Virus record (IMG/VR): IMGVR_UViG_3300037069_000805
Location: 40,241-104,240 of that record
Length of the DNA stretch: 64,000 bases
DNA from: a virus
Direction: 5' to 3' (one strand)
This document shows positions 21,292 through 64,000 of this stretch, one piece after another. The notes under the pieces were generated by a model that ran no database searches, was not told the DNA's origin, and worked only from the letters and a program-made list of their open reading frames with translations. Each line of letters opens with the position of its first letter. The first letter of the stretch is position 1. Made by a program: the position numbers and the translations under genes.

Positions 21292-21363
21292 AATTTGTGT
21301 GTATTTATATATTGCCTACTCTTTAGCTTTTCGGCTTCCGCTATGATTTTAAATATGTCAATA

Positions 21364-58065: not shown

Positions 58066-58608
58066 TTATATATTGTTATTATGTTTGGCAACTAATTTAT
58101 TTAATCTTGCAGATTTAACAAAGAAAGATACTTGATCTTTAGTAAATCCATAATCTACAATATATTTATGATATGATATTCTTTTATCTTTTTTATTTTT
58201 TAAACAATATTCAATATCTTCTAAAATTAATTTTACTTTACTTTTATTACAGTTTTCAGTATTTGGTATTGATTTATTTTGTCTAAACTCTTGATTTGAT
58301 TTTGAATTAAGTTGTATAGCTTTAAATTCAGCTAATTTAATATCAATAAATTGAGGAATATTTCTAAGAGAACCAATTATAATAGATTCTATATTAATAT
58401 TTCTTAAATCAAACCATTCATTATTTGAATTTGTTTTTACTTCTTTAAATAACTTATGTAATACTTTTTCATATTTATCTTTTACGTCAAATAAATGAGT
58501 GAAGGATAATTTATTAGGATTACTAGTTTGTAATTCTTTAATCCTATTATAAGGATTTTTACTTTTACCTATTTTAGTATAGGTACCATCTGATATAAAA
58601 TACACCAT
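58066..58608 (-). CDS. T5orf172/MUG113-type GIY-YIG nuclease-like protein (180 aa)
   Basis: The N-terminal ~90 residues match the T5orf172 (MUG113) branch of GIY-YIG proteins: VYFISDGTYTKIGKSKNPYN, then RIKELQTSNP and NEWFDL. The C-terminal half is basic and helical (KHNNNI at the end). Unlike the junction-inserted endonucleases here, it has its own promoter, a ~300-nt structured leader and a terminator. It may therefore have been domesticated for a phage function, or may use the leader for regulation. Confidence 0.75.
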   Translation of the reverse strand: MVYFISDGTYTKIGKSKNPYNRIKELQTSNPNKLSFTHLFDVKDKYEKVLHKLFKEVKTNSNNEWFDLRNINIESIIIGSLRNIPQFIDIKLAEFKAIQLNSKSNQEFRQNKSIPNTENCNKSKVKLILEDIEYCLKNKKDKRISYHKYIVDYGFTKDQVSFFVKSARLNKLVAKHNNNI

Positions 58609-58912
58609 TATATATAATATTTAATTAATACTTAATATCTAATTTTAGTTATTAGATATAAGAATCCCTATATGCAAACTGGTGTGTATTGCATAAACCG
58701 TCATATTTTAACTTCTTCTTGATTATAGACAGTGCATTATCCAAGATTTAACTGTTATTTAATAACATTTTTAGTTCGTGACACTTTTTGTTAAATCAAT
58801 CTATAAACTTGAATTGTTGGGAACGATTGGATTCCAACTTCTTACTTAACCCTTAGATACTGGAGCCAATTTAGGGTGTCCAGCAGAGCATCTTTCAAAG
58901 TAAGATATTTTA
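58609..58912 (-). ncRNA. Structured ~300-nt 5' leader of the 180-aa gene
   Basis: No gene is seen in this gap. Several hairpins are visible: 58635-58659 (ATATCTAAT, 9 bp, 27 nt before the start codon), 58671-58695 (TATGCAA, 7 bp), 58753-58767 (TGTTAT, 6 bp), 58816-58838 (7 bp with a bulge) and 58840-58905 (8-bp closing helix TCTTACTT/AAGTAAGA with an inner ACCCT/AGGGT stem). It could be a regulatory leader or a processed RNA. It does not fold as a tRNA. Confidence 0.5.
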
Positions 58913-58918
58913 ATAGTA

Positions 58919-58950
58919 CAAAGATAAACAATTTAATTGACAATTCCTAA
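58919..58950 (-). promoter_or_regulatory. Promoter, TTAG-N20-TATCTTTG
   Basis: Minus-strand TTAGGAATTG opens the -33 region with the perfect -7 box TATCTTTG after 20 nt. Transcription would begin near 58912 and give a ~300-nt leader. A weak match (11 of 15) to the head-gene upstream box sits at 58985-58999, the same 34-nt distance. Confidence 0.83.
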
Positions 58951-58986
58951 TAAAAAGTGAATTATTTTCAATTTATTTCCTTTTAG

Positions 58987-59328
58987 TTATAGCATATTTG
59001 TGTTTTTAATAAACCTTTCAACTTGTTCAAATACCCATTCTGTAAAATAAGCTTGTGGTTCATCATTATCAAAATCTGGTTTCATACAAATATATTTAAA
59101 TAACATATTGGTTATATGTACTGACTCATGACATATTAAAGAATTCGATATTTCTTCATTTGGAAAGGCTATATAGAATTTACTATTCTCTTGAAAGGTA
59201 AAAGCTCCATAATTACAACCTTTATCTACTTTTAAACTATATTTACCATCTAATTCTTCTAAATTATCTACTTGTATAAGTACTAATGTTCCAACATATA
59301 TAGGTATTTTAATTTCTTCTATTCTCAT
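58987..59328 (-). CDS. Small HExxH metallopeptidase-like protein (113 aa)
   Basis: A zinc-binding motif HESVH (residues 67-71) in a helix, LICHESVHITNMLF, is followed by EPQAYFTEW (Glu90, Glu97), which could supply the third ligand. Size and layout fit small phage metallopeptidase-like proteins. It is the outermost gene of the minus strand, with its own promoter 15 nt upstream, so it is probably expressed early or constitutively. Targets are unknown. Confidence 0.65.
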   Translation of the reverse strand: MRIEEIKIPIYVGTLVLIQVDNLEELDGKYSLKVDKGCNYGAFTFQENSKFYIAFPNEEISNSLICHESVHITNMLFKYICMKPDFDNDEPQAYFTEWVFEQVERFIKNTNML

Positions 59329-59343
59329 AATATTAAATTTTTA

Positions 59344-59375
59344 CAAAGATAATGAATTTATTCCATATATCCTAA
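59344..59375 (-). promoter_or_regulatory. Promoter, TTAG-N20-TATCTTTG
   Basis: Minus-strand TTAGGATATA opens the -33 region with a perfect TATCTTTG -7 box after 20 nt. It is the last minus-strand promoter before transcription switches to the plus strand. Confidence 0.83.
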
Positions 59376-59434
59376 TTTTTAATGGATTATTTTTAAATTT
59401 TTTATAAAATTTTTTCAGAAAGTTTTTTATTGAT

Positions 59435-59499
59435 GTGTATACTGACTAATCTAACTTCAACCCCTACCCTCTTTAAGGTTTGGGGATATACCCGTACAC
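59435..59499 (+). promoter_or_regulatory. Structured leader before the first plus-strand gene
   Basis: The stem GTGTA/TACAC (59435-59439 with 59495-59499) encloses a C-rich/G-rich hairpin with CCCC at 59461-59464 and GGGG at 59482-59485. This is unusually GC-rich for the region. It lies 26 nt before the preferred start and may be an early leader or part of an unrecognised promoter. No TAnnTTTG promoter was found on this strand. Confidence 0.35.
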
Positions 59500-59525
59500 A
59501 AATTGTTAAATTAAAACACAAGATT

Positions 59526-59975
59526 ATGTCATTTAAACCTAGAAAAGTCGAGTACAATGGTACAGAAAAAATTGTTTTAGTAGGTAATGCTAAATTGAAA
59601 TCACAATTACCAACATCTGAAAAGTCAGTACTATCTTATGATAATGCTGAGGGTGTTACTAAGAATTACAAGTTAGCTAATATAGCTGTTGACTTTGGTA
59701 ATGGTCAGACTACTGATATGTTAGCATCAGTACCTGAGAAAATCTATGCTAATAATGAATTTAAAGCTGGAGAGTCTTATCTTACTACTATTGAGAAAGT
59801 AGAAGATAGAAAGAATCCAGGTAAATACATCTTATTGGCACGTATGTCTGCTTTATCAGCTCTTGAGGTTAATGAAGTAGCTATTAACCATGCTATCAAC
59901 AACTTGTTTGAAATGGAAGCTGTAGAAGATCCTATTGCTGAAGTTAAATTAGCTGGTGCTGAAGTAGAAGAGTAA
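59526..59975 (+). CDS. Hypothetical plus-strand protein (149 aa)
   Basis: The frame opens at 59430, but the ATG at 59526 (MSFKPRKVEYNGTEKIVLVG) is preferred because the upstream part translates a C-rich structured leader. It has a beta-rich body (YKLANIAVDFGNGQT) and an acidic Ala/Glu-rich C-terminus (VKLAGAEVEE), reminiscent of single-stranded DNA-binding or abundant early proteins. No motif is certain. Codon use is less AT-extreme than in neighbours. It opens the rightward transcription. Confidence 0.6.
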   Translation: MSFKPRKVEYNGTEKIVLVGNAKLKSQLPTSEKSVLSYDNAEGVTKNYKLANIAVDFGNGQTTDMLASVPEKIYANNEFKAGESYLTTIEKVEDRKNPGKYILLARMSALSALEVNEVAINHAINNLFEMEAVEDPIAEVKLAGAEVEE

Positions 59976-59987
59976 TTAAAGGATTAA

Positions 59988-60056
59988 ACCACACAAAAAA
60001 TCTAAGGAAGGATAGTGATATCAGAGTTTAAGAAACTAGTTTAGATTGAGTGTGGT
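59988..60056 (+). ncRNA. Structured RNA element A1
   Basis: Two stacked helices (ACCACAC/GTGTGGT, and AATCTAA/TTAGATT) close a 69-nt element with an inner hairpin (AGTTT/AAACT, 60025-60037). A CTTTCTTTTT tract follows, so it could also end the upstream transcript. Confidence 0.45.
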
Positions 60057-60109
60057 CTTTCTTTTTATAACATGTGATACTTATGTATTAGGTGTTAGTT
60101 TGTAGTTTT

Positions 60110-60191
60110 ACCAATTAGTAATATATAGATTATGATTTCATTTCATCATTTCATTGCATTAATTAACAACTATAATCTTTTACTAGTTGGT
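60110..60191 (+). ncRNA. Structured RNA element A2
   Basis: The closing helix ACCAATTAGTA/TACTAGTTGGT (11 bp, one G-U) is followed by AGATTAT/ATAATCT. The 82-nt element has a large A/T-rich apical region. No protein frame is present. Confidence 0.45.
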
Positions 60192-60213
60192 CAGCTACTT
60201 ATTTTAAACTTAT

Positions 60214-60276
60214 AAACTCTCATCCAGCGTTACCAGCAATAAGTTGCTATCTGTTGTAAGTCAGATGTGAGAGTTT
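60214..60276 (+). ncRNA. Structured RNA element A3
   Basis: The closing helix AAACTCTCA/TGAGAGTTT (9 bp) encloses AGCAA/TTGCT (60235-60248) and runs into TTTAT, which looks like a small RNA with a terminator-like end. Confidence 0.45.
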
Positions 60277-60282
60277 TTATAT

Positions 60283-60320
60283 ATTATGTGATAGTTAAAG
60301 TATTGATTATGTGATAGTTA
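60283..60320 (+). repeat. 15-bp direct repeat, 23-nt period
   Basis: ATTATGTGATAGTTA occurs at 60283-60297 and again, unchanged, at 60306-60320, separated by 8 nt. Two copies only; this is too little for an iteron array, but it could bind a regulator. Confidence 0.6.
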
Positions 60321-60393
60321 TGTTTGTTTTATAGGTATGATTATTGATGTAATTACTTGATTATCATCATCTCAATCAATAAAAACACTATCA
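60312..60393 (+). ncRNA. Structured RNA element A4
   Basis: TGATAGT/ACTATCA (7 bp) closes an 82-nt segment that also contains ATTGAT/ATCAAT pairing. This is the weakest of the four elements in the 59,976-60,449 gap. Confidence 0.3.
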
Positions 60394-60449
60394 TTAATCA
60401 CCAAATCACACAATTATTATTTTAATATAGCACATTTAAACAAAGTATT

Positions 60450-60662
60450 ATGACATCAACTGATAAAAAAGAATACAATATATTACAAAGAAAATGTCAA
60501 GAAGCTTACATTAAACACTTCGATAGAGGTAATTTTGGAAGAATTCATGGTAAATCTGTCAATTCATTTAATAATAGATTAGCTAAAATGCATCAATTTT
60601 GTATTGAAAAGCAATTAAATAATAGTCGATGGTTACGAATACAACCATTACAACTGTATTAA
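60450..60662 (+). CDS. Hypothetical protein (70 aa)
   Basis: A basic helical protein starting MTSTDKKEYNILQRKCQEAY. No motif. It is the first gene after the structured zone 59,976-60,449 and is followed after 38 nt by another small gene. The function is unknown. Confidence 0.6.
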   Translation: MTSTDKKEYNILQRKCQEAYIKHFDRGNFGRIHGKSVNSFNNRLAKMHQFCIEKQLNNSRWLRIQPLQLY

Positions 60663-60700
60663 TTTACAAAAACAAAACTAACTGACAAAAACAAAATATT

Positions 60701-60880
60701 ATGAAATACGCAATTATAATTGATGTAAGAAATAGAAAATATCTTACTGGATTCACAAATATTAGAATTGAAAAAGAAACTATGCTTACAGGTGGAACTA
60801 AATATACTGTTGAATTAAGAGAAATGACAGGTATATTCTTAACACTTGAAGGTGATGCTAAAGAATATTTTAGCAATTAA
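60701..60880 (+). CDS. Hypothetical protein (59 aa)
   Basis: A complete frame from ATG 60701 to TAA 60878-60880: MKYAIIIDVRNRKYLTGFTN, with a beta-rich C-terminal half (TKYTVELREM). It has clean coding character and a natural spacing from the upstream gene. No known domain. The opposite-strand frame here is a shadow. Confidence 0.65.
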   Translation: MKYAIIIDVRNRKYLTGFTNIRIEKETMLTGGTKYTVELREMTGIFLTLEGDAKEYFSN

Positions 60881-60885
60881 CAACA

Positions 60886-60932
60886 TTTTAGTCAGTCAAT
60901 TACAGATAATGCTGGGTTGACTGATTATAAAA
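60886..60932 (+). ncRNA. Structured RNA element B1
   Basis: A stem-loop with TCAGTCAA/TTGACTGA (8 bp) and outer TTTTA/TAAAA, directly after the preceding stop codon. It is the first of six elements tiled end to end up to about 61,580. Confidence 0.4.
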
Positions 60933-60936
60933 TATC

Positions 60937-60990
60937 ATGGTAATTCATCATCTAACAACTTGTCAATAGCTCTGTTAGATGATTAGCCAT
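60937..60990 (+). ncRNA. Structured RNA element B2
   Basis: An 11-bp perfect helix (ATCATCTAACA/TGTTAGATGAT) lies inside an outer ATGG/CCAT closure, with a 15-nt loop. It begins 4 nt after B1. Confidence 0.45.
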
Positions 60991-60997
60991 ATCTTAT

Positions 60998-61098
60998 AAA
61001 ACTAATACATTAATACTGCATAAATTAGAGAGAGGTGACATATGAGAGTCTAACTCATCCTTTCGATGGACATAATTTATAGCATTAGTATTAGTTTT
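60998..61098 (+). ncRNA. Structured RNA element B3
   Basis: An 11-bp closing helix (AAAACTAATAC/GTATTAGTTTT) is followed by a second helix (ATAAATTA/TAATTTAT, extended by GC pairs across a one-base bulge) and an apical hairpin ATGAG/CTCAT with a 7-nt loop (61042-61058). The 3' arm ends in a T tract. Confidence 0.5.
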
Positions 61099-61107
61099 TA
61101 AAATACA

Positions 61108-61191
61108 TGTTGAGAACAAGTTGATTAATTAGTAGGATGTTACAAGAAAATTGTATACAGCATCATACGTGCACAATCAACTTGTTTAACA
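61108..61191 (+). ncRNA. Structured RNA element B4
   Basis: A 12-bp perfect helix (AACAAGTTGATT/AATCAACTTGTT, 61115-61126 with 61175-61186) sits inside a TGTT/AACA outer closure. Inside is a stacked hairpin with GATG/CATC and ACAA/TTGT. Confidence 0.5.
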
Positions 61192-61195
61192 ATAT

Positions 61196-61391
61196 AAAAG
61201 AATTAAATTTTAATGATGGTAGAATTACCTTCACGCAAGTCTTACTCATAAGTGACAGGTCTTCCTAGGAATAAGAAACTGTATCTTGAGGGAAATCTAT
61301 AACTAATAAGGATTAAAAATCTAATTAGAAAAAAGAAAGTACAGAACATATTATATAACAATAATATGTATAAGAGAAATTTAATTCTTTT
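61196..61391 (+). ncRNA. Structured RNA element B5
   Basis: A 15-bp perfect closing helix (AAAAGAATTAAATTT/AAATTTAATTCTTTT) encloses 166 nt with GGTA/TACC, CTTA/TAAG and ACATATTA/TAATATGT hairpins. The 3' arm runs into T residues. It starts 5 nt after B4. Confidence 0.5.
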
Positions 61392-61419
61392 TTAACAAAA
61401 TGTCACTGACGCATTATAA

Positions 61420-61622
61420 GATCAGGTGAGTTATACTATTCGTAGTTTAACAAAAAGGTAAGACGTTGCCTAAATAGATGAATTTGTTGTATGTATACTC
61501 TTGTAGGAACATTCTAAGTAAAACTCAGCCATACGATAGTATGAGAAAATGTCCACTGTAGGTGCTGATCGACAAGGCAAATATCAATTAGACAAGAATA
61601 GAATTTATTTAGTTAAATTCTA
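61420..61622 (+). ncRNA. Structured RNA element B6 (possible pseudoknot)
   Basis: Helices include GATCAG/CTGATC (61420-61425 with 61565-61570), TGAGTT/AACTCA inside it, CATAC-GATA-GTATG (61530-61543), and a separate TAGAATTT/AAATTCTA hairpin (61599-61622). A TTGCCT/AGGCAA pair (61466-61471 with 61575-61580) crosses the first helix, so a pseudoknot is possible. 61,623-61,704 shows nothing further. Confidence 0.4.
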
Positions 61623-61704
61623 TATCTACTAGCATTGATGAAATAAGGTAAAAAGCATCCCTTATATTTTTAATCGAAATTGTTAAATCTAAAGATAAAT
61701 AGTT

Positions 61705-61899
61705 ATGAAAAGTTTAGAAATTCTTCAACAGCAATTAATTGAGGCTCAAGAAGAATTAAAACCTCTTCTTAAATATAATATGGATAGATATTTGAATAAA
61801 TGTACAGGTGATTTAACATTATTAAGTAGAATAAATCCATTAATAACAAGAATTTATAATCTTAAAATAAATATTAATCAATTAAAACAGAGATTATGA
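61705..61899 (+). CDS. Coiled-coil protein (64 aa)
   Basis: The sequence MKSLEILQQQLIEAQEELKP and what follows is almost entirely helical with heptad spacing and no other motif. It overlaps the next gene by 4 nt (ATGA), which supports translational coupling. The function is unknown. Confidence 0.65.
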   Translation: MKSLEILQQQLIEAQEELKPLLKYNMDRYLNKCTGDLTLLSRINPLITRIYNLKININQLKQRL

Positions 61900-62123
61900 A
61901 AACAATACAAAAACAACATCAGATTGTATTAGTTCCTACTGATAAACCTGTAATAGGTGGATTAAATAAAAGAGGAAATAGTATATCTGGACCCATTAAT
62001 TGCCAAGGCTCAGTTCATTGTATAACCGAGAATATAGTTAAAAGAAAAGGTTATACCGTTGATTTAGATATACCTCAACATTTATATATTGTTGACAGTA
62101 GTGAGATTAAAGAATTAACATAA
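61896..62123 (+). CDS. Hypothetical protein (75 aa)
   Basis: A soluble protein starting MKTIQKQHQIVLVPTDKPVI with a Cys/His-containing centre (NCQGSVHC, residues about 35-42). Known motifs not recognised. It ends in TAATG, overlapping the HNH gene by 1 nt. Confidence 0.6.
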   Translation: MKTIQKQHQIVLVPTDKPVIGGLNKRGNSISGPINCQGSVHCITENIVKRKGYTVDLDIPQHLYIVDSSEIKELT

Positions 62124-62608
62124 TGGAAGAATGGAAACAAATTGAAGATTATCCTAATTATGAAGTCAATAATGCAGGAGTTATTAGAACTACCAAAAAT
62201 GAATTTACAAGAAAGGAAAGAATCTTAAAGATAAAGAAATCCAATAATGGTTATGTAAGAGTTGGTCTTTGGAAAAATAATAGAGTAAGCTTTAAATCTG
62301 TTCACAGATTAGTAGCTATATATTTTATTCCAAATCCTGACAATCTTCCTGAAGTTAATCATTTAGATGGTGACAAAGAAAATTGTAATGATTGGAATTT
62401 AGAATGGTCAAGCCATATTGATAACTCTAAACACGCTTCTGAAACAGGTTTAATTGCTTCAAGAGAAAGACACGGAAAAACAAATCTAACATCACAAGAT
62501 GTGAAAGATATTAGAGCCTCTGAGCTAAAAGTAACAGAACTTTGTGAAAAGTATAATTTACATAATACAACTATTTATTCAATTAAAAGAGGAGAAACAT
62601 GGAAGTAA
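62123..62608 (+). CDS. HNH homing endonuclease with NUMOD4 domain
   Basis: The 161-residue protein has a NUMOD4 segment at the N-terminus (WKQIEDYPNYEVNNAGVIR). An HNH nuclease centre follows (SVHRLVAIYF with His61, then EVNHLDGDKENC with Asn79-His80, and NLEW), and a C-terminal helix-turn-helix ends it (LTSQDVKDIRASELKVTEL). It shares TAATG with the upstream gene and 10 nt (ATGGAAGTAA) with the downstream gene. This is typical of phage HNH homing genes. Confidence 0.9.
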   Translation: MEEWKQIEDYPNYEVNNAGVIRTTKNEFTRKERILKIKKSNNGYVRVGLWKNNRVSFKSVHRLVAIYFIPNPDNLPEVNHLDGDKENCNDWNLEWSSHIDNSKHASETGLIASRERHGKTNLTSQDVKDIRASELKVTELCEKYNLHNTTIYSIKRGETWK

Positions 62609-63069
62609 TACAACACAAAGGTAAATGGTATCTTAAATCTAATACAGGTTATAGAGAGATTGTCGCAACAACTAATCCTAAACTTAATAAAGATATAATT
62701 TTCGATAAGAACTATTTTGACGATGGATTTATAAAAGGTTTACCAAAACCAACAGACCAATTCATTCAACAATGGATAGATAAAGGTTATCCTAAGTTTA
62801 TTAATGTGGAATGCGAAGAAACTAAAGTTTATAGATATTTAACTAAAGAAGAACAAATTAAAAGGTATGGTTATAAAGCATCATCTACTCCCTATATGAA
62901 TAATGTTTATTCTAATGAACTTAAAATCTCAAAAAATAATACAATCACTTGTAGTTTTATTGAAGATGATTGGGATAGTATTTTAAATCCTATAAGTGAG
63001 GCTAATAAAGATGATTTAATTAAATATCTTAAAAGATATTTTAACTCACCAACAAAGAAAACTGTGTGA
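62599..63069 (+). CDS. Hypothetical protein (156 aa)
   Basis: It begins MEVIQHKGKWYLKSNTGYRE and is mixed alpha/beta with conserved-looking aromatic and Pro/Gly positions (YLTKEEQIKRYGYKASSTPY). It is the last gene before the long structured zone. The start lies within the HNH gene. It stops with TGA. The function is unknown. Confidence 0.6.
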   Translation: MEVIQHKGKWYLKSNTGYREIVATTNPKLNKDIIFDKNYFDDGFIKGLPKPTDQFIQQWIDKGYPKFINVECEETKVYRYLTKEEQIKRYGYKASSTPYMNNVYSNELKISKNNTITCSFIEDDWDSILNPISEANKDDLIKYLKRYFNSPTKKTV

Positions 63070-63124
63070 TATTCAGTTACCCTAATATCAATAATTAACT
63101 TTAAATGTTAATATATAAACTTCT

Positions 63125-63194
63125 AACTATTGTGGTGAATTAGTCAAAGCCTGTAAAGGACAAGAGTTTGAATCCTCTTATAATTACAATAGTT
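63125..63194 (+). ncRNA. Structured RNA element C1
   Basis: A 12-bp closing helix (AACTATTGTGGT/ATTACAATAGTT, two G-U) encloses a hairpin with AAGAG/CTCTT and a tRNA T-loop-like TTTGAATC. It is not a tRNA: no anticodon stem is found and extra bases sit before the acceptor-like arm. First of the elements filling 63,070-63,927. Confidence 0.45.
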
Positions 63195-63200
63195 ATGCTT

Positions 63201-63274
63201 TAAACTTCTAATACAGGTGATGCTGCACAGCCCTGAATAAAAGAATTCGCTATGGGAGAGCTATTAGAAGTTTA
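63201..63274 (+). ncRNA. Structured RNA element C2
   Basis: A 12-bp perfect closing helix (TAAACTTCTAAT/ATTAGAAGTTTA) encloses 50 nt, including a CAGG/CCTG pairing. It starts 6 nt after C1. Confidence 0.5.
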
Positions 63275-63279
63275 TCCTT

Positions 63280-63383
63280 TAAAACTCTTATAATAATTGG
63301 TCATTATGTTATATCCTGAAAGTGTCGACTTTATTAGGATATGTAATGTGAATTAACACACTGATTTAAAGATAAGAGTTTTA
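63280..63383 (+). ncRNA. Structured RNA element C3
   Basis: An 11-bp perfect closing helix (TAAAACTCTTA/TAAGAGTTTTA) encloses a hairpin with ATATCCT/AGGATAT and AAAGT-GTCG-ACTTT stacked inside a CATTA/TAATG extension. A GTG/CAC mini-hairpin follows. This is a clear multibranched fold, starting 5 nt after C2. Confidence 0.5.
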
Positions 63384-63387
63384 TTAA

Positions 63388-63492
63388 TATAGGCTAAACA
63401 TTGATCCTATACAGTATATCAAAATATAGTTCGATTAAGTTCTTGAATTATTATTATTTTGATTAGTATGAAGATATATACAGTAATGTATA
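63388..63492 (+). ncRNA. Three short hairpins between C3 and C4
   Basis: TATAGG/CCTATA (63388-63411), ATCAAAAT/ATTTTGAT (63418-63463) and TATAC/GTATA (63477-63492) continue the tiling without overlap. Confidence 0.35.
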
Positions 63493-63493
63493 A

Positions 63494-63626
63494 TGTGTTG
63501 TTCTCTTGAGAAAGGAATATTAATAAAAGCTGACGGTAAGTAGACAGGAAACTGTAAAAGCTATAAAAACAAGGAAGTACTACTTACAGGCAATAGAGTG
63601 TCAGTTATTTGAAGCTCTACAACACA
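63494..63626 (+). ncRNA. Structured RNA element C4 (GAAA tetraloop)
   Basis: Nested helices TGTGTTGT/ACAACACA (8 bp), AGCTGAC/GTCAGTT (7 bp) and GTAAGTAG/CTACTTAC (8 bp) lead to ACAG-GAAA-CTGT (63544-63555) at one branch. A GNRA loop on a stacked stem is typical of folded RNAs. Confidence 0.55.
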
Positions 63627-63643
63627 AATGAGTTCTCAGCATG

Positions 63644-63708
63644 ACCCTATATTATCTTTTAAGGGCTGGCTATACCCCGAAATATAGCGACAAGTAATAA
63701 TATAGGGT
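63644..63708 (+). ncRNA. Structured RNA element C5
   Basis: A 12-bp perfect closing helix (ACCCTATATTAT/ATAATATAGGGT) encloses a GCTATA/TATAGC hairpin (63669-63688) whose loop contains CCCCGAAA. Confidence 0.52.
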
Positions 63709-63728
63709 GCTAAAAAATAATATAATTT

Positions 63729-63907
63729 ATTTACTTGCTTGAAAATAAATACTAATTCCTGATAACAACTTTTGAACAAAAGAGTTAGAAGCTATTCAGA
63801 GCTGTTGTTTATTAGAGAGATATATACTCATTAAGACTGCCTTGAAATAGTTGGATGAAAGCAGTACCAACAATATATTCCAACACTGAATTGTTGGACA
63901 AGTAAAT
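63729..63907 (+). ncRNA. Structured RNA element C6
   Basis: A 9-bp closing helix (ATTTACTTG/CAAGTAAAT) encloses CTTTT-GAAC-AAAAG (63769-63782) inside AACAAC/GTTGTT, and CCAACAAT/ATTGTTGG (63867-63897). The 3' arm runs into six T residues 20 nt before a lipoprotein gene. Confidence 0.5.
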
Positions 63908-63927
63908 TTTTTATTAACTAAATTATT

Positions 63928-64000
63928 ATGAAGAAACTATTATTTATACTATTTATAGTATTAACAACATCATGTGCATCCAAAGGAGGCAACATACATC
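63928..64000 (+). CDS. Lipoprotein, N-terminal part only
   Basis: The frame begins MKKLLFILFIVLTTSCASKG, a lipoprotein signal peptide with lipobox LTTSC (Cys16), and continues off the window end. Only 24 residues are seen. A phage-encoded lipoprotein would be anchored in the host envelope, with superinfection exclusion a common role for such proteins, but the mature protein is outside the window. Confidence 0.7.
   Translation, partial: MKKLLFILFIVLTTSCASKGGNIH

Follow-up and report, generated by a model that had tools for sequence, protein, structure and literature searches.

The window analysed in this study covers 64,000 nucleotides of a virus record of 104,240 bp (positions 40241-104240) and comes from a genome with a GC content of 25%, whose portal and major head proteins match crAss-like PHROG families; the closest isolate by portal search was Cellulophaga phage phi14:2 (57% identity). 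Because the record opens with the same 126 bases with which it closes (window 63874-63999), we conclude that the genome is circular and that zone C, a noncoding region at 63070-63927, spans the cut or abuts the record start. Genes run mostly leftward before 58.6 kb and rightward after 59.4 kb, on into the record start, and zone C sits about 3.6 kb inside the rightward set. Homing-type endonuclease genes are found at 62123-62608 (NUMOD4-HNH) and 58066-58608 (MUG113/T5orf172), and the sole Rfam match at gathering score in the window is a DUF805b RNA at 21313-21344 on the - strand (47.1 bits). The phage encodes its own tmRNA at the record start (L003 5539-5917, + strand, 56.9 bits; ARAGORN tag GGTEVRSNSQPIVALAA), and tRNA-like sequences under the Rfam cut-off occur at L003 3291-3359 (21.9 bits) and L003 6375-6464 (19 bits), and in the former the acceptor stem and T-arm are good, the D-arm is odd and the anticodon loop, judged by eye, has 8 bases.

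The original prediction described zone C as a noncoding region filled with stem-closed structures, and this description is borne out. No ORF in it reaches 60 aa; its fold energy is -182.5 kcal/mol, a value that none of 20 dinucleotide shuffles attained (-165.1 +/- 5.7 kcal/mol, z -3.05); and it holds six helices of at least 11 bp where 0.7 +/- 0.8 are expected (0 of 200 shuffles with as many). The closing helices named for the elements C1 (63125-63133/63186-63194), C2 (63201-63213/63262-63274) and C3 (63280-63291/63372-63383) are present, as are helices within 63388-63713. The further claim that zone C is a row of unrelated elements placed end to end fails for C4-C6, which are domains of one predicted RNA at 63388-63713, and stands for C2 as a separate unit; likewise, of the two proposed readings, that of a small-RNA array is right in part (C2), and so is that of a single large ornate RNA (63388-63713).

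The candidate large RNA (63388-63713; this and all features below within zone C are on the + strand) is about 325 nt long, takes in most of the former C4-C6 and matches 132 loci by blastn. Its full length in the family is 208-503 nt, with a median of 324, the window copy being about 324-325 nt, and its parts follow one another from 5' to 3' as H1, P0, H2, P1 (with P2 and P3 inside), the 3' strand of a pseudoknot, an optional P4 and P5. The H1 hairpin (63388-63411), TATAGG-CTAAACATTGAT-CCTATA, has a conserved loop, with TAAACATTGA upstream in 75 of 93 loci; its family form is AGG-YTAAACATTGA-CCT, and its stem varies among relatives (CTCG/GAG, GTCG/CGAC and others). The P0 helix ATCAAAATA/TATTTTGAT (63418-63463; family form TTTGTAAAT...ATTTACAT) encloses a variable domain, is 91% paired in relatives and is followed by a linker, ATAAAGATA, before H2. 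This hairpin, TATACA-GTAA-TGTATA (63477-63492; family form CTATCA-GTAA-TGGTAG), carries a GNRA tetraloop and shows double changes at all six pairs in two alignments. P1, TGTGTTG/CAACACA (63494-63500 with 63620-63626; family form GTGTTG...CAACAC), encloses P2 and the variable P3 and is followed by AAATGAG. The P2 hairpin (63501-63517), with double changes in 4/4 pairs, has the loop CTTGAGAAA, which would pair with a downstream TTCTCAG to form the pseudoknot TTGAGAA/TTCTCAG (63506-63512 with 63633-63639; 95.5% paired, almost invariant). P3 (63518-63619) contains CTGAC/GTCAG, GTAAGTAG/CTACTTAC and ACAG-GAAA-CTGT, and is enlarged in the window, where the P1 5' strand lies 126 nt from the 3' anchor compared with typically 50-65 nt in relatives. 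P4 (GTAGTTA...TAACTAC) is present in most relatives and missing from the window copy, as it is from L113, L131, L166 and L190, among others. The 12-bp helix P5, ACCCTATATTAT/ATAATATAGGGT (63644-63708; family form GTGACCC...GGGTGCTAA), leads into the 3' conserved block GGGTGCTAA (63705-63713), which is found with at most one mismatch in 86 of 90 loci, and AGGGTGCTAA occurs in 68 of 93. The ends of the RNA are guessed, because neither a promoter nor an intrinsic terminator on the + strand stands out clearly from chance; a Bacteroidota-type promoter was looked for in 59000-64000 and not found, and intrinsic terminators in zone C found no support on the + strand.

Protein queries from the genes adjoining zone C gave no relatives, a portal protein query gave 73 loci, and blastn of zone C against 37 portal-found records revealed a conserved core with the blocks GTGTTGTTCTCTTGAGAAAGGAAT and ACAACACAAATGAGTTCTCAGC; reading out the core matches uncovered more conserved blocks both up- and downstream. 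In IMG/VR an exact 21-mer matched 106 stretches, the contigs reaching 373 kb, an H1-loop anchor 117 and a P4/P5-block anchor 68, and these three independent anchors all lead to one and the same RNA. Because the anchors recover overlapping sets and IMG/VR contains redundancy, the numbers count stretches, not species. At least 93 distinct versions of the large RNA came from the 21-mer stretches and the loci of earlier searches, and in 85 loci newly fetched with the other two anchors a covariance model gave 80 matches. Carriers include Cellulophaga phage phi14:2, environmental crAss-like phages and giant-phage contigs; a crAss-like portal was found in 26 of 50 carriers, and the tested carriers of 153-373 kb were without one. 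A blastn search of INPHARED with zone C returned nothing, and the core consensus matched phi14:2 alone among annotated phages, its copy falling where earlier ORF calls have been withdrawn. The same consensus found no match in the plasmids searched, the exact 21-mer occurred in one stretch among 84,980 species genomes (a MAG contig of 20 kb whose small ORFs look phage-like), and a model search of 198 Bacteroidia genomes gave no second strong match and one weak match at 29 bits. As far as tested, the large RNA is thus a phage RNA and not a borrowed host RNA.

The covariation check across homologues proposed with the original prediction returned strong covariation in 63388-63713. Among 71 sequences, the window left out, double changes occurred in 140 cells, against 37 in shuffled and 15-38 in slid controls. 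P1 was unable to vary in this set because the sequences had been fetched with the 3' strands of P1 and the pseudoknot, and an independent test of P1 was made with 40 loci fetched without P1 or pseudoknot letters, plus the window. Here 99% of P1 cells were paired and double compensatory changes occurred in all seven pairs, with versions such as TGTGTTG/CAACACA, ACGTGAGT/ACTCACGT, TGTATAG/CTATACA, TGTGCTG/CAGCACA and ATATTAT/ATAATAT, and the covariation score of the whole structure was 0.487, against 0.144 for shuffled and at most 0.130 for slid alignments. P0 had 40 double-changed cells in relatives against 16 when shuffled, and covariation in P0 and P4 was above all shuffles. The strands of P5 paired better with their own partners than with swapped ones (p=4e-8, 70 loci, free register), and the test of H1 is indicative only because its register was chosen by the analyst. 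More weight lies with the slid controls and the diversity of P1 sequences than with the 0/500 shuffles, since shuffle counts ignore relatedness. In the 40 loci plus the window the pseudoknot showed no double changes, its pairs altering on one side only, into or out of G-U; it is consistent, and draws its support from conservation and these changes, not from covariation. Taken together, the compensating changes show that the predicted fold of the large RNA is under selection. A held-out covariance model built without the window and covering the core of the RNA matched 63460-63649 (78.8 bits, E 7.6e-19), its sole strong match in 64 kb; this genome has one copy, and carrier stretches mostly one each. 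A weak match at L003 10679-10747 (19 bits) lies inside an ORF and was taken as chance.

The GC content of 25% and the mild enrichment of the shorter helices in zone C (8-9 bp) would suit AT-rich sequence that folds by chance, a reading whose probability is next to nil given covariation far beyond both controls and the held-out model match. For the predicted RNA at 63388-63713 chance folding is already refuted; C1, C3 and the downstream hairpins rest on single-sequence folds. We also considered that the inverted repeats act as DNA, in an origin, packaging or recombination site. The mostly single copy per carrier stretch, and the one in this genome, would agree with this, but G-U pairs are frequent inside the conserved helices (one H2 pair is U-G in 17 cases and G-U in 3), the strand bias with the genes is strong and H2 bears a GNRA loop, which makes a DNA-level element highly improbable.

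Around the large RNA, flanking ORFs of at least 100 aa lie on the same strand in 349 cases and on the opposite strand in 31, and none of this size overlaps the core. Its placement between co-directional genes would be expected of a cis-acting mRNA element, i.e., a UTR structure that stabilises, processes or regulates adjacent phage genes, and three reduced copies (L081, L169 and L170) stand right behind a gene, one of them followed by a hairpin and a T run, which would suit a 3'UTR role too. However, there is no linked gene family or regular protein neighbour, the commonest family occurring in only 21 of 93 loci at varied distance and side, and the fold, at 208-503 nt and with several conserved domains, is larger than one would expect of a generic UTR element; we regard a cis-acting element as quite unlikely. 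Genes for tRNA or tmRNA within 1.5 kb lay on the same strand in 30 cases and on the opposite strand in none, and all 10 tmRNAs within this distance were downstream of the large RNA; at 1 kb or less, 16 of 59 loci had such genes against 9.1 expected, all on the same strand, which is a modest enrichment. In this genome the tmRNA lies 5.5 kb downstream of the large RNA (63388-63713), and tmRNA-like genes were also seen near the large RNA in phi14:2 and another carrier. No obvious target is seen inside the phage, since carriers show no enrichment of sequences complementary to the H1 loop.

Known RNA families offer analogies for the large RNA. The Rfam scan of zone C proposed earlier, with GOLLD and ROOL included (Rfam 15), gave nothing even at E<=10, and the surroundings (58600-64000) gave only chance matches; the GOLLD and ROOL models found nothing at gathering score in the window, at E<=10 in 58600-64000 or at E<=5 in eight relatives. 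GOLLD, which has no known function, is a large structured RNA that phages and prophages carry, in many cases close to tRNA islands, and ROOL is phage-encoded, near tRNA islands and pseudoknotted, with no identified protein partner (PMC12286853). The large RNA resembles GOLLD as a large phage RNA that has a conserved and a variable part, and it shares the GOLLD trait of being phage-encoded near tRNA genes; it differs in its length of about 325 nt, GOLLD often exceeding 800 nt, in the lack of an Rfam match at E<=10 and in being found here in environmental Bacteroidota-type phages. A further GOLLD trait is assembly into a homo-oligomeric nanocage. With ROOL it has in common its phage origin, tRNA gene neighbours, a pseudoknot and no protein partner seen, but its core is smaller and differently arranged, with no Rfam match. 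It was filed with neither family because the Rfam models do not match, and the likeness to GOLLD and ROOL in the original prediction survives by analogy, in that the RNA is encoded by phages, lies near tRNA or tmRNA genes and shows no protein partner, and not as membership, in view of the different, smaller architecture. A phage tmRNA is likewise a stable structured RNA with pseudoknots, which shares the strand of the large RNA and frequently follows it closely, but this genome and phi14:2 each have a separate tmRNA gene and the tmRNA model does not match the large RNA. Zone C as a tmRNA, defined by a tRNA-like end together with a tag reading frame, was rejected, as ARAGORN and RF00023 are silent there and both detect the separate tmRNA on L003.

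A group I or group II intron or a known ribozyme was rejected as well, the Rfam models giving no match. A ribozyme or intron-like mobile RNA tied to homing endonucleases such as the NUMOD4-HNH gene (62123-62608) would fit an HNH gene about 0.8 kb upstream, a GNRA loop, pseudoknot and invariant blocks that are also usual in catalytic RNAs, and scattered carriers and swapped modules that suggest movement. Against this, Rfam intron and ribozyme models are silent at E<=10, no gene is interrupted and homing endonucleases are not regular neighbours, and we consider it very unlikely. In the main texts searchable through PMC no description was found, and a prior description elsewhere is possible.

Large structured phage RNAs without a known function, such as GOLLD and ROOL, are few. 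Judged from sequence alone, the large RNA is a new class among them, absent from Rfam 15, and would add to this small group an example with strong covariation from uncultured aquatic phages. We consider it probable that the product of 63388-63713 is a phage RNA with tertiary structure that stands alone and acts in trans. The best reading, by analogy, is that it would work like GOLLD and ROOL while belonging to neither. It may be transcribed within the rightward multigene unit of the genome and excised from the multigene transcript as phage tRNAs are; a rigid core would bear variable arms, and the RNA could serve as a scaffold or decoy for phage translation or RNA handling in host takeover. The fact that it often precedes genes for tmRNA and tRNAs suggests a part in how the phage controls translation or RNA metabolism, and a role linked to translation or tRNAs is a tentative possibility. 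A bolder proposal, an undescribed, widespread RNA machine common to crAss-like and giant phages, which as an RNA-only or RNA-protein particle or a catalyst would take over host translation with tRNAs and the tmRNA, seems to us rather unlikely. As phi14:2 is a cultured carrier, transcription, processing and necessity of the large RNA are directly testable.

Upstream of the large RNA, C2 (63200-63274; ATAAAAGA) is a putative small RNA with a 13-bp closing helix, one or more inner hairpins and one relative, L182 6730-6800, in which the inner stem CAGG/CCTG is replaced by CCAG/CTGG. We regard C2 as a unit of its own because this relative stands apart, about 4.9 kb from the large RNA copy of L182, with its inner stem changed but kept; a C2 model search found no convincing member beyond its two source sequences. 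C1 (63125-63194), with the closing helix AACTATTGT/ACAATAGTT and two inner hairpins, and C3 (63280-63383), with the 12-bp closing helix TAAAACTCTTAT/ATAAGAGTTTTA and a long inner hairpin, are single-sequence folds without relatives among the collected loci, and are perhaps separate small RNAs as well. One inner hairpin of C1, AAGAG-TTTGAATC-CTCTT, is T-arm-like, and C1 was considered as a tRNA and rejected, neither ARAGORN nor RF00005 recognising a full cloverleaf and only this hairpin and a long closing helix being seen. The hairpins downstream of the large RNA (63729-63907), e.g., at 63764-63809 (AACAAC/GTTGTT) and 63880-63897, are also single-sequence folds and had no convincing relatives among these loci.

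Several further observations were made on related loci. A diverged second module of P1, P2 and pseudoknot stands in tandem in L207, L213, L280, L282, L288 and L296, where the P1 and P2 sequences differ and TTCTCAGCAAGTAGTTA is the same. The reduced copies in L081, L169 and L170 keep only P1, P2 and the pseudoknot, and it is the L081 copy that is followed by the hairpin and T run. L132 and L133 are nearly identical in P2-P3 and have different H2 hairpins, so that RNA modules look to have been exchanged between phages. Elsewhere in the window, 58609-58990 is a further conserved noncoding stretch (86% identity across 375 bases with L047), whose last 60-70 bases recur in many loci (38 subjects, whole query), and a hairpin-like stretch of 52 bases at 60878-60929 is 94-98% identical in five loci despite differing flanks.
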